Made by a program: the position numbers and the translations under genes. From Gelria sp. Kuro-4 (GTDB lineage: Bacteria > Bacillota > DTU030 > DUMP01): a DNA stretch of 64,000 nt. Positions 1,176 through 51,861 of this stretch are shown in pieces. The notes under the pieces were generated by a model. It worked only from the letters and a program-made list of their open reading frames with translations. It had not been told where the DNA came from and searched no databases. The stretch's first letter is position 1. Each line of letters begins with the position of its first letter. The stretch spans positions 1,115,001-1,179,000 of the forward strand of contig NZ_AP024619.1 of assembly GCF_019668485.1 (NCBI RefSeq), in the 5' to 3' direction.

Positions 1176-1185
1176 CACTGCACCC

Positions 1186-1336
1186 TCCTCGTTGAGCTTT
1201 GGCACTGTACGACTTTGGCAGCGCCAGCCACGTTAGGTAAAACCTTAAGCCGGTAATACCTGCTCACCCATTGGTGTCTTTCGACATTTCCGGGCAGTGG
1301 CCTGTATTCGTACAGGAGCCTCGCCTAACAGGGTTT
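1186..1336 (-). ncRNA. M-box (ykoK leader) magnesium riboswitch
   Basis: The minus-strand transcript carries the conserved M-box blocks in order: GTTAGGCGAGGCTCC, a short hairpin, ACTGCCC, AAATGTCGAAAGACACCAAT, GGG, then a GTACAGTGCCAAAGCTCAACGA block at the 3' end. These match the B. subtilis mgtE leader almost base for base in the core. M-boxes bind Mg2+ and favour a terminator when Mg2+ is plentiful. Here the aptamer is followed by a terminator (1146-1175), two possible leader ORFs and an ABC permease rather than MgtE, CorA or MgtA. Confidence 0.94.
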
Positions 1337-1352
1337 ACCTTATTCTCTTTTA

Positions 1353-1589: not shown

Positions 1590-1700
1590 GTACAAACGAA
1601 TACCTTAAAGCAGAGGCCAGGAACCGTCGCCCTTATTTGGGCGCTTGGGCGGCGGGGAGCCAGTAGCGCAACCGGCTGCCGCAAGGCAGCCGTTTGTATT
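1590..1700 (+). promoter_or_regulatory. Structured 5' leader ending in a terminator-like hairpin
   Basis: GTACAAACG at about 1590-1598 can pair with CGTTTGTA at 1691-1698, closing a domain. Inside it is a CGCCC/GGGCG hairpin (about 1629-1644) and a perfect stem CGGCTGCC-GCAA-GGCAGCCG (1673-1692) followed by TTTGTATT. The last stem plus U-rich tail looks like an intrinsic terminator only 24 bases before the regulator's start codon. The GTACAAACG pairing would compete with the terminator's tail. It does not match a riboswitch class I can name. Confidence 0.5.
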
Positions 1701-24178: not shown

Positions 24179-25720
<1,542 letters not shown>

Positions 25721-25802: not shown

Positions 25803-26363
25803 TTAAGCCGGTCGGCCTGCAGCACTCTTAAAAAGGGGCAGCTTCTCGAGAAAGATGATGTCGTTGCGCTCTGCCGCCTCACCCTCAGCCAGAATGGCCG
25901 CCCGGGCCGCCACCGTGCCGCCGGCGCTCTTTACCAGGTGCTCTACCGCCTCCAGCGAGGCGCCGGTGGAGATCACATCGTCCACAACGGCCACCCGCCG
26001 GCCGCACACGGCGGCGGCGTCCTTCCCGTCCAAGCAGAGGATCTGCTTTTTCTGGGTGGTGATAGAGACCACCTCGGTGACCAGGGGGTCGATCATGTAG
26101 GGCTTAATGCTTTTTCTGGCCACGAGATAGCGCTTAAGCCCCAGGATGCGCGAAAGCTCCTGCGCCAGGGGAATGCCCTTGGCCTCGGCGGAGACCACGA
26201 AGTCCACCGGGGGCAGGCGCCGGGCGATCTCGGGTGCCGCGGCTTCCACCAGCTCGGCGTCGCCCAGGATGACAAAACTCGCAATGGCCAGGCCCGGTGC
26301 CACTTCCACCAGGGGCAGCTCCCGTTCCAGCCCGGCCACGCGCAAATGGTACGTTGCAGGCAT
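25803..26363 (-). CDS. Adenine/xanthine phosphoribosyltransferase-like protein
   Basis: The 186-residue type I PRTase carries the PRPP-binding loop VAVVDDVISTGAS (near residue 127) and an N-terminal FVVSAEAKGIPLAQEL segment like adenine phosphoribosyltransferase. It would convert a purine base and PRPP to a nucleotide. ATG 26363 follows GGAGG at seven bases. It lies 13 bases downstream of an NCS2 permease, in an operon with a PurR-type operator, so it most likely salvages the imported purine. Residues that select the base are not clear, and a PRPP-sensing regulatory role cannot be excluded. Confidence 0.82.
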   Translation of the reverse strand: MPATYHLRVAGLERELPLVEVAPGLAIASFVILGDAELVEAAAPEIARRLPPVDFVVSAEAKGIPLAQELSRILGLKRYLVARKSIKPYMIDPLVTEVVSITTQKKQILCLDGKDAAAVCGRRVAVVDDVISTGASLEAVEHLVKSAGGTVAARAAILAEGEAAERNDIIFLEKLPLFKSAAGRPA

Positions 26364-26376
26364 GGCACAACCTCCT

Positions 26377-27429
26377 TTACACTCCAAACAGCGCGATCAG
26401 GTACTTCATGGCTACCCCGGCCAGCATACCGAGGAAGGGGTCGGTGGTGGCGGTGACGGCCGCCGTCACTCCACCCACCAGGGGATCGGCCGTGACGGCC
26501 AGTTCGGCGTTGATGGGGAAGGTGACGATGGCGCCCAGCACCAGGAGAAAGCCGGCGATGGACTGCATAGGCACGTAACGGCCTAGCCGGGGCAGCAGTC
26601 CAGCCACCAGGATAAGGCCCATAAGAGACATCATTAAGGCACCGGACAGCAACGGGTGCGGTGCGGCCCCGGTGGCGGAGATGATGGATTCTACCGGTCC
26701 CCCGCCGAAGAGGGCGGAACCCAGGTCTGCCAGGCTGGAGACGATGGCCAGGTGGTCCAGGTTGAGGGTAGTCTTGGCGATAGAACCAGTGATATTACCA
26801 AAAGCGATGTTGGCACCGATGTTAAGGCAGATGAGGGCGGCGGCGCCGCGCAGCACGCGGGGCGTAGCGATAGGTCGCTGCAGAATGAAGCGCTCATACT
26901 CGCTGTTGTGGGCCACCGGGTTTACCTTGCCCAGCAGGTTGGCCACCATGGTGGAGACCGCTACCGAGGCCACGATGGTGTAGACCAGATTCTTGGTGGG
27001 CATGTAGACGAGAAGGGCAGTAGCGGCCGATACCAGTCCCACCGGCAGCTCTTCGCGCACCATGTTGACGGCCACTGCCGTGAGCACCACGCCTACGCCC
27101 GCCATCATGCCGTTGGTGACCACCGGCCCGACAAAGGTCACAATGGTCTGGAGAAGGCCCAGAATGCCGATCACGGTCATAACGGCACCTTCCCAAATCA
27201 GCATGGACAGACGTTCCTGGCGGTTTTGCCCCATGGTGCCCACCAGAGTAATCGTTTCCGCCTGGAAAGAGATGGGCGCAACCAGGCCGAAGGCCAGCGC
27301 GCCGGCGGCGCCAATGAAGAAGGCCACGGAGGTCGGAAGGGCAGCAAAACCGAAGGAGAGGGCGAGCAACCCCTGGGGAAGACCGTTGATGATGACTCCA
27401 AGCGCAGCCAGCAAGTCCTGTAGGCTCAA
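26377..27429 (-). CDS. NCS2-type purine/xanthine permease-like protein
   Basis: The 350-residue membrane protein has about ten or eleven hydrophobic segments. It has GLPQGLLALSFGFAALP near the start and GGGPVESIISATGA in the position of the NCS2 substrate-binding region. It starts at TTG 27429 with AAAGGAGG seven bases upstream; the longer open frame has no ribosome site and runs into the operator. It is shorter than most NCS2 proteins (about 430), missing part of the N-terminal region. The operon with a PRTase and paired PurR boxes supports purine uptake. Confidence 0.8.
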   Translation of the reverse strand: MSLQDLLAALGVIINGLPQGLLALSFGFAALPTSVAFFIGAAGALAFGLVAPISFQAETITLVGTMGQNRQERLSMLIWEGAVMTVIGILGLLQTIVTFVGPVVTNGMMAGVGVVLTAVAVNMVREELPVGLVSAATALLVYMPTKNLVYTIVASVAVSTMVANLLGKVNPVAHNSEYERFILQRPIATPRVLRGAAALICLNIGANIAFGNITGSIAKTTLNLDHLAIVSSLADLGSALFGGGPVESIISATGAAPHPLLSGALMMSLMGLILVAGLLPRLGRYVPMQSIAGFLLVLGAIVTFPINAELAVTADPLVGGVTAAVTATTDPFLGMLAGVAMKYLIALFGV

Positions 27430-27555: not shown

Positions 27556-27620
27556 GACGGTTGACGTCCAGGTTGTCCAGCGCACCACCAATAAGGCGCC
27601 CGGCCGGCCGTCGGCGCAAA

Positions 27621-27634
27621 TGCAGTATACTGCA
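27621..27634 (+). promoter_or_regulatory. Palindrome TGCAGTATACTGCA, possible activator site
   Basis: A perfect 14-bp palindrome lies 73 bases before a sigma-54-like promoter, the distance expected for an enhancer site. Related palindromes occur at 27890-27905 and 27922-27939. Confidence 0.5.
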
Positions 27635-27707
27635 GGCAGAGCGCTTCCGGGTTGCAGTGGCTTGCAGGGGACGAAAACAGGGAAAGCCGCGCCTGGTTGA
27701 CACAGAC

Positions 27708-27724
27708 TTGGCATGTTTTTTGCA
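27708..27724 (+). promoter_or_regulatory. Possible sigma-54 promoter
   Basis: TTGGCATGTTTTTTGCA matches the -24/-12 consensus TTGGCACGnnnnTTGCW, with the required ten bases between GG and GC. It points toward the amino acid dehydrogenase 374 bases downstream. No good sigma-A promoter was found in that gap. Confidence 0.55.
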
Positions 27725-27889
27725 AATAACAAGGGCGGTACCAAGTCGGTACCCACAAGAAGGCTGGTGGTCAAGAAAAGGGAAAACACGAAGAAGGGAA
27801 GGGGTGGTGTTCCGCCGATACCGCCGAGACCGGAGCGAAGCGTAAGGAGTTGCAGTATCCTGACCTGTGTCTGCAGTTTTGTTCGTATT

Positions 27890-27939
27890 CTGCAACATTT
27901 TGCAGCTTTGTTGTCCGTTAACCTGCATTATGTTGCAGG
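27890..27939. repeat. Two related 16-bp palindromes, CTGCA-N6-TGCAG
   Basis: CTGCAACATTTTGCAG (27890-27905) and CTGCATTATGTTGCAG (27923-27938) share the pattern CTGCAnnnnnnTGCAG and lie 17 bases apart. An imperfect third copy (TTGCAGTATCC...CTGCAG) is at 27850-27876. They look like binding sites for a dimeric regulator of the downstream dehydrogenase. The 540 bases between the purine promoter and the dehydrogenase hold no convincing gene. Confidence 0.55.
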
Positions 27940-28097
27940 GTGGAACCGTATCACAAGTGGGCAAGCGCCTTGACGATGGTACTAAAATCACCGGAGGAGA
28001 ACGGTGGATTCCCGGCGCGGTTCGCGCTTGAGGGGCCAAGAACTCTGCCGGCGGCGCAGCCGAAAAGATCGCTTAAATGTAGGGGGAGGCTTAGAAA

Positions 28098-29165
28098 ATG
28101 AGAGATGTCCTTAGAAATATGGAAGAGTACGATCACGAGCAAGTCTTGTTTGGTTATGACAAGGTATCCGGGCTGAGGTGCATCATCGCCATTCATAATA
28201 CAACCCTTGGGCCGGCTCTGGGTGGCCTTCGCATTTGGCCTTACAAGAACGAGGATGAGGCCTTGTTTGATGTTTTGCGCTTGTCCAGGGGAATGACCTA
28301 TAAGAATTCGGGGATGGGGCTCGACTTCGGCGGGGCCAAATCTGTGATCATCGCCGATCCCAATAAAGAAAAACCGGAGGAGCTGCTGCGTGCCTTCGGC
28401 CGCATGGTAGAAAGCTTAGGAGGCCGCTATATTACGGCCGAGGATGTCGGTAGTACTTTGGAAGACATGATGACGATTCGCAAGGAAACCAAATACGTGG
28501 CCGGGCTGCCTGAAACATCCGGAAATCCCTCGCCGGTGACTGCTTACGGGGTATTGCAGGCCATGCGCGCCACGGCAAAACACGTCTGGGGAAATGAAAG
28601 CCTGGAAAACAAAAAAGTAGCCGTCCAGGGCTGTGGTAACGTCGGCCTGAGCCTGATTGAACAGCTCATCCAGGCCGGTGCCACGGTATATGCTGCTGAT
28701 ATGTTCGAGAATAAGCTGCAGCGTGCTGTCAAAGCGGGAGCCATTCCTGTAGAACAAGACAAAGTTTTTGACGTTGAGGCTGACATATTTGCTCCTTGCG
28801 CTCTTGGAGCCGTTCTCAACGACGAGACTATTCCTAAATTAAAAGTCAAGGCAGTCTGCGGTTCAGCCAACAACCAGCTGCTGGAACCGCGCCACGGGAA
28901 AGCCCTTGCAGCCAGGGGGATCGTATATGCGCCGGATTTCATCGTCAACGGCGGAGGCGTAATCAACGTGGCGGAAGAGTTCGCCCCGGGTGGGTATAAT
29001 AAGGAGCGAGCGTACAAGAAAGCAGCAGGTATTTATGACATTCTCCTCAAGGTCTTTGCCATCGCCACCGAAAGGAAGATCGAACCGTACGAAGCTGCCA
29101 AGGTGTTGGCTGAAGAACGTATTCGGAAGGCACTGGAGCAAAAACGTATGTACCTGGGCAGGTAA
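28098..29165 (+). CDS. Leucine/valine dehydrogenase (Glu/Leu/Phe/Val dehydrogenase family)
   Basis: The 355-residue enzyme reversibly deaminates a branched-chain amino acid with NAD. The substrate domain has GPALGGLRIWPYKNEDEAL and the catalytic lysine region GMTYKNSGMGLDFGGAKSVI, matching leucine dehydrogenase. The NAD domain has VAVQGCGNVGLSLIEQL (GxGxxG, near residue 180) and DFIVNGGGVINVAEE. ATG 28098 follows AGGGGGAGG with a nine-base gap. Valine or phenylalanine cannot be ruled out as substrate. The gene is visibly richer in A and T than its neighbours. Its long upstream region carries a sigma-54-like promoter and palindromes; a hairpin ends the unit at 29193-29228. Confidence 0.9.
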   Translation: MRDVLRNMEEYDHEQVLFGYDKVSGLRCIIAIHNTTLGPALGGLRIWPYKNEDEALFDVLRLSRGMTYKNSGMGLDFGGAKSVIIADPNKEKPEELLRAFGRMVESLGGRYITAEDVGSTLEDMMTIRKETKYVAGLPETSGNPSPVTAYGVLQAMRATAKHVWGNESLENKKVAVQGCGNVGLSLIEQLIQAGATVYAADMFENKLQRAVKAGAIPVEQDKVFDVEADIFAPCALGAVLNDETIPKLKVKAVCGSANNQLLEPRHGKALAARGIVYAPDFIVNGGGVINVAEEFAPGGYNKERAYKKAAGIYDILLKVFAIATERKIEPYEAAKVLAEERIRKALEQKRMYLGR

Positions 29166-29334: not shown

Positions 29335-29739
29335 CTAAGCGCTGTCTGATGGGGGCGATGCCCCATAGTGTAAGGCGGGCACTTTTGCGCCGACAAACTC
29401 CAGCACCTTGCGAGCCAGTTCCAAGGCCGCTGCGGCATCCCTGGCCCCATAAGCCGCCGAAGGAATGCCGCCCGGAAGTCCATTGGGGTAGCGGGTGGGG
29501 ATATAGTACTTGTCGAGGAGGGCGGCCTCAGGAGCGATGCCTGCAAAAGAAGGGTCCTCAGAGGTGGCCTTGGTGGCCAGCTCAGCCACGGAGTGTCCCC
29601 AAGGATCCTCTCCGCACGAGTAAAGAAAAGCCTTGAGCGCCTTTTCGGCGCTTTGCTGGCAGAGGAAACAGGCGACGTTGAAGCGCTCACCCGAGGCGTT
29701 GAACTCGGCGTCGTCCAGGTCTTTTCTTGCCTGGGCCAA
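29335..29739 (-). CDS. HEPN-domain protein (toxin half of HEPN/MNT pair)
   Basis: The protein has the HEPN helical bundle, with RFNVACFLCQQSAEKALKAFL as its signature. In the usual family form the N-terminus reads like Y.EEAERWLAQAR.DL. That sequence continues upstream of 29739 in frame up to a stop near 29803, but contains no ATG, GTG or TTG. The only usable start is TTG 29739, with a weak ribosome site, unless coupling to the MNT stop is used. No clear RxxxxxH ribonuclease motif is seen, so activity is uncertain. It lies directly after the MNT gene and is A/T-richer than the surroundings. Confidence 0.75.
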   Translation of the reverse strand: MAQARKDLDDAEFNASGERFNVACFLCQQSAEKALKAFLYSCGEDPWGHSVAELATKATSEDPSFAGIAPEAALLDKYYIPTRYPNGLPGGIPSAAYGARDAAAALELARKVLEFVGAKVPALHYGASPPSDSA

Positions 29740-29755
29740 CCAGCGCTCAGCTTCT

Positions 29756-30112
29756 TCAGTGTATGGACGCCGCGTAGAGTACCACCCCTTCCTTTACCGC
29801 CCGTTGGACGAAAGGATTTTTTTGCTGAAGCTCGGTAAACTCTTCCGGCGTATAGCACAGGAGATCCAGGCTGACAGTAGGGAGAAGCCTTCGGTACAAA
29901 ACGTCAAGTCGTTCCAGGAATCCAAGGTTTGTCTCCCAAATAACCATGAGGTCGATATCGCTGTGCTTTTCCACCTTTTGGCCGGCCAGGGAGCCGAAAA
30001 GGATTACCATGTTAACGCCTGTCTCGGCAAGGATGCTTACTATTCTCTTGAGCTCAGCTGTCAGCTTCTCCCGACGCTGTGTGCGCAAAGCGGCACGTTC
30101 GGCTGCCGGCAT
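29756..30112 (-). CDS. MNT nucleotidyltransferase (antitoxin half of HEPN/MNT pair)
   Basis: The 118-residue protein has the minimal nucleotidyltransferase core: ILFGSLAGQKVEKHSDIDLMVI, with the GS and the paired Asp (DID) that bind metal and ATP. Known MNT antitoxins silence HEPN toxins by adding AMP to them. The start at ATG 30112 is set by AAGGCGG eight bases upstream; GTG 30121 is also in frame. Its last bases lead into the HEPN frame. The pair is probably a toxin-antitoxin module. Confidence 0.82.
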   Translation of the reverse strand: MPAAERAALRTQRREKLTAELKRIVSILAETGVNMVILFGSLAGQKVEKHSDIDLMVIWETNLGFLERLDVLYRRLLPTVSLDLLCYTPEEFTELQQKNPFVQRAVKEGVVLYAASIH

Positions 30113-30279
30113 GGAAACCACCGCCTTAGCGAGCGCTTTATGTACGATAATTCTAGCATAGTAATTCTACCAGAAGAAACTGCCCCGCACAAGCCCCGGA
30201 AGAACCCTTAAAGCCCAGTACGCAGATGTCCGCGGCTTCCAGGGTTTCGCAGCGCATGCCGGCCGGAAACCCTGCCCGC

Positions 30280-30352: not shown

Positions 30353-30742
30353 CTAGCTTTGCGCAGCCGGCGCCGGAGAGGAGGGCGCATAGCCGGGACC
30401 GTAGCCCCAGCGCGCCGGGCCGCGCCCGAGACCGGCGTTTGGGCCGAAACCGCTGTGGCAGAACCCAGGGCCCATGCCCCAGCCGGGGCCGTACTGGAAG
30501 TTGTTCTCTTTCTGCCACTCGTACATCTGGTCAACGCGGTCCTTGGCGATCTTGGCCTGGTCGGGGGTGATCCGGCCCAGGTCCACGTACTTGTCGATGA
30601 TTTGTTTGCGCAGGTTCACCATTTGCTGGTAGAGGGCCGCCAAGTCAGCGGTGGTATCCTGCGTGTCTGTGGCGGCCAGCGCCGGGATGGCGGTCAGGGC
30701 CAGCACGAGGGCCGCAATGCCGAAGGCCAGGAGCTTCTTCAC
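30353..30742 (-). CDS. Secreted DUF2680 family protein
   Basis: The 129-residue product starts at GTG 30742 with AAAAGGAGG eight bases upstream. It has a signal peptide (VKKLLAFGIAALVLALTAIPALA) with an ALA-A cleavage site. The mature part begins with a short helical DUF2680 domain (LAALYQQMVNLRKQIIDKYV..GRITPDQAKIAKDRVDQMY). It ends in a Gly/Pro/Tyr-rich tail like those of periplasmic or surface-associated small proteins. The function is not known. A long inverted repeat lies just upstream (30766-30843). Confidence 0.82.
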   Translation of the reverse strand: MKKLLAFGIAALVLALTAIPALAATDTQDTTADLAALYQQMVNLRKQIIDKYVDLGRITPDQAKIAKDRVDQMYEWQKENNFQYGPGWGMGPGFCHSGFGPNAGLGRGPARWGYGPGYAPSSPAPAAQS

Positions 30743-30765
30743 GAACAGCGCCTCCTTTTTTGGTG

Positions 30766-30843
30766 GTTGGTCGTGAGTTGTCGGCCTTGCCGGAGGATCA
30801 CGCCCAGCCGGACGACGACCGATGACCAAGACTTACGACCAAC
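30766..30843. repeat. Inverted repeat GTTGGTCGTGAGT...
   Basis: GTTGGTCGTGAGTTGTCGG and CCGATGACCAAGACTTACGACCAAC are imperfect inverted copies enclosing about 34 bases. It lies between two divergent genes and may be a degenerate interspersed repeat. Confidence 0.45.
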
Positions 30844-48017: not shown

Positions 48018-48206
48018 GCGTTAAACGATCTCAAGCGCCCGAACTCCCCGGCGACGCCCGGCCGGCGGCGAACCGGCCCTCGGGGAGTTGACGAGGAAGG
48101 GGTTTATCGAAGTCTTCGGCGGATGCCCCTCGGGTTCTCACCGCCCGTAAGGCCTTCCTGAAAGCCCGGGAGCGATCTCGGGGACAAAGGGAACGCCAGG
48201 TGAAAA
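48018..48206 (+). ncRNA. glmS ribozyme
   Basis: The leader of glmS carries the conserved ribozyme blocks: AGCGCCCGAACT after the cleavage point (between A48034 and G48035), a variable stem, GTTGACGAGG, GGGTTTATCGA, TTCGGCGGATGCC, then GGTTCTCACCGCC and GACAAAGGGAACGCC. It is cut when glucosamine-6-phosphate binds, lowering glmS expression. Spacing to the glmS start is about 105 bases. Confidence 0.97.
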
Positions 48207-48312
48207 GGGTGTCTGTGCCCCGCGCGGCACGCTGTCCCACCCTTCCGGTGTGTCTTTGCCACGCCCGGAAGGCTTGGTTGAATTTTGCCTTAAATTAAGG
48301 AGGTTGAGCCGT

Positions 48313-51442: not shown

Positions 51443-51861
51443 AGCGGCTGTCACCACGCTAAGAGAGCCCGGCTTGCCGGCCAAGTCGGGCTTGCCTGTT
51501 ACCCGGCCCCTTCCCTTATGTGGCCCAAGGAAAGGGGACGCGTCTATCCTTCGAGGAAATGCAAAAGATCGCCGGGTCCATAAAGTAAAGCCCCGCAGCC
51601 GATCAAAACGGTGCCTGGCGCCGGGCGACACCACCAGGCGACGGGCACCGCTTCTCTTCGCACCGTATCACGGCAGAGGCAAGCAGGGCGCGGGTTGGGC
51701 ACTGCCCAAGGCATTTTTCTTGCTGACTGAGCCGGCGCTGGAGGCGGTGGGAGAAGGAATCCGGCCCGCCCTGGTGAAGTTAATGAAAGTCACAATTGAA
51801 CCGGCCTTGCTCTTAATGGCCCGGCAGGCCTGCTCCGGATAACGTAGAGGAGGAATAGTGA
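51443..51861. other. Intergenic stretch with one repeat element
   Basis: About 420 bases without a recognisable gene. It contains an imperfect palindrome near 51610-51650 (CGGTGCCTGGCGCCGGGCG...GGCGACGGGCACCG type) of the same family as 51033-51073. The open frame across it has no family resemblance. Confidence 0.5.

Follow-up and report, generated by a model that had tools for sequence, protein, structure and literature searches.

Among the systems closest to the one described here is the BkdR arrangement of Bacillus, in which the activity of the ptb-bcd-buk operon promoter drops in the absence of sigma-54 or of BkdR (PMC4428206). Control of the bkd operon by BkdR and sigma-L in Bacillus subtilis and B. 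thuringiensis is mentioned in the same article with reference to Debarbouille 1999. A second relevant case is RocR, which, as cited in PMC4941409 from Belitsky and Sonenshein 1999, activates B. subtilis rocG from 1.5 kb downstream. In the Clostridiales, 39 groups of enhancer-binding proteins (EBPs) are listed in PMC6615313, where LeuR and ZypR come nearest by function.

The locus analysed here precedes a leucine dehydrogenase (LeuDH) gene in a 64 kb stretch of the Gelria sp. Kuro-4 genome, which we call the window. In our view this region very probably serves LeuDH as its sigma-54 promoter and enhancer, as part of a BkdR-type regulon for branched-chain amino acid catabolism, and works by the mechanism set out below. 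Like the Bacillus bkd system, it combines a sigma-54 promoter, a PAS-AAA+ activator encoded beside ptb, LeuDH or buk genes, and a role in branched-chain amino acid catabolism. Unlike in Bacillus, the Kuro-4 LeuDH lies ~0.74 Mb from the activator gene, there is a ferredoxin oxidoreductase instead of the BKD dehydrogenase complex, and BrnQ and a second EBP join the regulon. The Clostridiales groups share with it the control of amino acid fermentation by sigma-54 through an EBP and a UAS, often with multiple sites, but none of the 39 groups listed in PMC6615313 has ptb-LeuDH-VOR targets. ZypR (tyrB-iorAB-butK) is given there a TGT-N10-12-ACA motif, different from the TGCA-N6-TGCA found here, and LeuR is described as controlling leucine reduction. 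The TGCA-N6-TGCA motif is absent from the running text of that article, which presents its motifs in figures and supplements. The main texts of the openly readable papers searched state no UAS consensus for activators of the BkdR type, and the motif may be new.

The gene itself (28098-29165, plus strand) encodes a 355-residue protein of the Glu/Leu/Phe/Val dehydrogenase family (PF02812/PF00208), preceded by a ribosome-binding site read from the sequence, GGGGGAGG (28082-28089, plus strand). Its closest solved structures are the leucine dehydrogenases 6acf, 3vpx and 1leh, the first two being among the top PDB matches with E < 1e-118. The best NCBIfam model, the tryptophan dehydrogenase ScyB, falls far under its cut-off (383 versus 600 bits). 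Because the solved relatives are leucine dehydrogenases and the ScyB model fails by this margin, leucine dehydrogenase is the best assignment for the predicted product.

The promoter, TTGGCATG-TTTT-TTGCA (full string TTGGCATGTTTTTTGCA), occupies 27708-27724 on the plus strand, with the -24 GG and -12 GC at the fixed spacing, in agreement with the -24/-12 spacing claimed in the first-pass annotation. With a weight matrix derived from 54 sigma-54 sites, taken from relatives and from the Kuro-4 genome but not including the LeuDH promoter, it is the top sigma-54 match of the window at 24.2 bits; the runner-up, AGGCATTTTTCTTGCT at 51709 (plus strand), reaches 12.4 bits. The genome encodes one sigma-54 gene (G000:C1:2562025-2562501; PF04552, E 3e-60) and 15 strong sigma-54 activator domains. 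No plus-strand sigma-A-type promoter was found in the control region, and we infer a transcription start near 27735.

Flanking this promoter are four copies of a palindrome whose unifying core is TGCA-N6-TGCA, the only copies in the window, all listed without strand. When the 538-bp region was shuffled 5000 times with its dinucleotides preserved, the core occurred on average 0.017 times and never more than twice. UAS1, ATGCAGTATACTGCAG (27620-27635, centre ~-107, 19.1 bits), contains the perfect palindrome TGCAGTATACTGCA at 27621-27634, which ends, as had been noted, 73 bases upstream of the promoter. UAS2, TTGCAGTGGCTTGCAG (27652-27667, centre ~-75), is the weakest of the four at 10.0 bits and had been overlooked; it lies 32 bp, or ~3 helical turns, from UAS1. 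Two or three related palindromes had also been claimed downstream, and we found two of the CTGCA-N6-TGCAG form, CTGCAACATTTTGCAG (27890-27905, centre ~+163, 20.5 bits) and CTGCATTATGTTGCAG (27923-27938, centre ~+196, 21.4 bits, the highest UAS score in the window), spaced 33 bp or about three helical turns apart. A repeat search added two degenerate half-sites, TGCAGTATCCTG (27851) and TGCAGTTTTGTT (27872), within 27849-27883, for which no statistical weight is claimed. When the window is scored with a UAS matrix derived from other genomes, the four palindromes take the first four places, the next match scoring 5.4 bits. Searching for CTGCA-N6-TGCAG with one mismatch allowed was too noisy (135 matches per strand versus 57 in the control); the motif is described as TGCA-N6-TGCA with C, A or T in front of it and a spacer usually starting with A.

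The palindrome, whose lack of conservation had been named as grounds for rejecting it, stands upstream of a sigma-54 promoter in all nine of the nearest LeuDH orthologs (62-81% identical, from genomes of the same family and class), and thus in 10 of 10 genes with Kuro-4. Its distance to the -24 element is 76-135 bp in the orthologs, and 89 and 57 bp in Kuro-4. The UAS1 core GCAGTATACTGC recurs at the LeuDH gene of four family relatives (L155-L158), where CTGCAGTATACTGCAT is also kept. This LeuDH is absent from the two genomes of the same genus (drafts, 92% and 90% complete), so that the genus itself gives no footprint.

Within the Kuro-4 genome, two of the 17 strict sigma-54 promoters have a TGCA-N6-TGCA within 300 bp, that of LeuDH and one at 1878551, between the gene of a PAS-AAA+-Fis activator and an operon encoding a butyrate-kinase-type acetokinase (buk) and three subunits of a 2-oxoacid:ferredoxin oxidoreductase (POR/VOR-type). 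A third promoter, CGGCATTATTCTTGCA (17.6 bits, two sites), precedes the gene of a BrnQ-type transporter (PF05525), which is followed by a second activator gene. All three promoters share the core GCAGTATACTGC. Genome-wide, 14 UAS matches are strong. Seven of them have a sigma-54 promoter nearby and belong without exception to the LeuDH, brnQ and buk loci; the other seven have no such promoter within 400 bp. The genome search for palindromes beside other -24/-12 motifs, proposed in the first-pass annotation, thus found them again only at branched-chain amino acid genes (brnQ, buk), and the regulon ties the uptake, deamination and oxidation of these amino acids together.

The EBP, previously left as possibly unknown with a search for a BkdR/RocR-type activator suggested, is identifiable. 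The PAS-AAA+-Fis protein upstream of the buk operon (571 aa, G000:C1:1878664-1880376) has the PAS, AAA+ and Fis-type HTH domains of a BkdR-type activator (PF00989, PF00158, PF02954) and is the likely activator of the LeuDH promoter. Its orthologs are present in all family genomes searched (69-83% identity, with one 76% fragment, in G005, at a contig end), and show 59-70% identity beyond the family where present. The BkdR-like protein was found in all 12 nearest genomes, three times as a partial match, and 100 of 398 genomes sampled from the phylum, roughly one in four, carry a match with E below 1e-140.

The sites accompany this gene far beyond Kuro-4. Within 420 bp after the stop codon, 41 of 51 activator orthologs have a TGCA-N6-TGCA, in 34 of these 41 together with a sigma-54 promoter; the set omits loci without an automatic stop-codon call (21 of 32 long EBP loci), and several loci outside it, read separately, agree. 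Downstream of the 51 orthologs the spacing of 6 was seen 56 times, compared with 1-11 times for other spacings from 0 to 9 and with a mean of 0.14 in mononucleotide shuffles. Smaller peaks at spacings of 10 and 20 are probably due to sites standing in arrays. The first recognised gene after the activator is that of Ptb (23), LeuDH (16), Buk (3) or VorA (1) in 43 of the 51 cases, and the Kuro-4 activator has a neighbourhood of the same kind. In Caldibacillus (L083), a member of the Bacillaceae, the ortholog is 61% identical, and two sites, a sigma-54 promoter and LeuDH come after it. From the predicted domains, the gene neighbourhood and this Caldibacillus ortholog, we assign the control of LeuDH to a BkdR-type regulon. 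The first-pass annotation was thus right on the control elements and on the kind of activator, and the analysis provides a precise, testable candidate binding motif for a BkdR-type activator found in a quarter or so of the phylum genomes sampled.

The following mechanism can be proposed. Sigma-54 RNA polymerase would sit on 27708-27724 as a closed complex, while the BkdR-like activator would bind as one dimer per TGCA-N6-TGCA palindrome. On sensing its ligand, which is probably an amino acid or keto acid of the branched-chain type, the activator would oligomerise, loop over and open the LeuDH promoter. The same protein and motif would drive the operon of the BrnQ transporter and that of butyrate kinase and 2-oxoacid:ferredoxin oxidoreductase, and with activator and motif shared by three loci, uptake, deamination and oxidation would therefore be induced together. 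The control of LeuDH is a standard sigma-54 enhancer system, tied here to a specific regulator and motif.

The two sites between promoter and gene set this locus apart. Upstream sites are present at 46 of 48 promoters of the regulon, and sites between promoter and gene at one, that of the Kuro-4 LeuDH; the bracketed layout was unseen in the 47 others. In the nine nearest LeuDH orthologs the stretch from promoter to start codon is free of such sites, and the downstream pair, which outscores the upstream one, is without counterpart in the relatives, so that comparison lends no support to a function for it. The description of the control region as unusually loaded therefore holds for the two downstream sites, and not for the upstream part, as one to three upstream sites are normal in the regulon. 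The pair makes the LeuDH promoter a natural test of enhancer position. That BkdR-type sites on both sides act as a two-sided enhancer, or else hold a downstream-bound activator as a built-in brake, is a proposal we make tentatively, at somewhat less than an even chance.

Three readings of the pair at ~+163 and ~+196 can be ranked, namely additional enhancer sites, a relict and a brake, although sequence alone cannot decide between them. We lean slightly towards the first, in which they would most likely serve as extra downstream enhancer sites for the same promoter. This is the simplest reading because EBPs can act from downstream, as RocR does at rocG, and because there is neither a second sigma-54 promoter nor a signal of RNA structure. 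As described in PMC4941409, in the rocG case, too, an amino acid dehydrogenase gene has activator sites downstream of its sigma-54 promoter; the case differs in that its site lies 1.5 kb downstream, beyond the gene, whereas the Kuro-4 pair lies inside the 5' leader and is joined by upstream sites.

Rather unlikely, in our view, is that we see a relict here, or sites of a second promoter since lost after a promoter duplication. The leader is ~200 bp longer than in the orthologs and the extra segment has no match in the Kuro-4 genome or in seven family genomes, which fits a relict; the half-sites, however, are perfect and score above UAS2, which argues against decay, and the best plus-strand sigma-54 score in 27725-28110 is only -3.8 bits, at 27879. 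We also rejected a second promoter behind the downstream sites, GGGCAAGCGCCTTGAC near 27957, picked by eye and lying outside the ten best matrix matches of the region, as well as the idea that the leader segment had been copied from elsewhere, given the zero matches in these eight genomes.

Less probable still is a brake, whereby activator bound at +163/+196 would block elongation or compete with the upstream sites and so tune LeuDH. Both sites score high (21.4 and 20.5 bits) and lie in the transcribed leader, and EBPs can repress, as SoxR does on its own promoter (PMC4941409), but in the account given by the same source the RocR sites downstream of rocG activate, and nothing in the Kuro-4 region favours repression over activation.

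A different question is whether the palindromes belong to the second EBP (G000:C1:485135-486538) rather than to the BkdR-like protein, which we regard as very unlikely. The gene of this EBP follows brnQ at a distance of 155 bp, and the brnQ promoter has two of the sites. However, no genome searched, not even those in which the sites are conserved, has an ortholog of this EBP that exceeds 45% identity. The BkdR-like protein, by contrast, occurs in all of the 12 nearest genomes, and the sites accompany its own gene across the phylum. The recognition helix also differs, being IPRSRLYRRL in the brnQ-linked protein versus SxRxLYYKL in the site-bearing group. Lacking a close ortholog in the relatives and having a different helix, the brnQ-linked protein is the less likely binder, though it might share the sites. 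It is adjoined by genes of a MaoC-type dehydratase, an enoyl-CoA hydratase and a CoA-transferase (L042:4283-7112, plus strand), beside which there is a weak -24/-12-like site, TGGCACGCTCCGTGCT, at L042 4217; these genes are a possible target of the brnQ-linked activator.

That the CTGCA repeats are hairpins of a leader riboswitch or attenuator can be set aside as scarcely credible: the palindromes can form hairpins and one was flagged as terminator-like, but the leader has no Rfam family at gathering score and otherwise chance-level matches, its folding z is -0.6, no conserved, covarying leader structure was seen in the orthologs, and the relatives' palindromes lie upstream of the promoter and are therefore not transcribed from it.

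The surroundings of LeuDH offer some minor observations. Between it and the gene of a secreted-looking DUF2680 protein (30353-30829, minus strand), convergent to LeuDH, a HEPN-domain protein and a nucleotidyltransferase are encoded in tandem (29335-30121, minus strand; PF05168, PF18765), likely a HEPN-MNT toxin-antitoxin pair. Two family relatives (L155, L157) have a DUF2680-like reading frame near LeuDH, seemingly without the intervening pair, which suggests that the pair is an insertion. On the other side, a divergent membrane protein gene (26377-27429, minus strand; no Pfam or NCBIfam match) adjoins an adenine-phosphoribosyltransferase-like gene (25803-26387) and has a sigma-A-type promoter, TTGACG-N17-TATACT, upstream at 27555-27527. 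Known cis-RNAs in the window are an M-box (1177-1339, minus strand), a c-di-GMP-II element (1603-1686, plus strand), a SAM riboswitch (25611-25720, minus strand) and a glmS ribozyme (48023-48207, plus strand).
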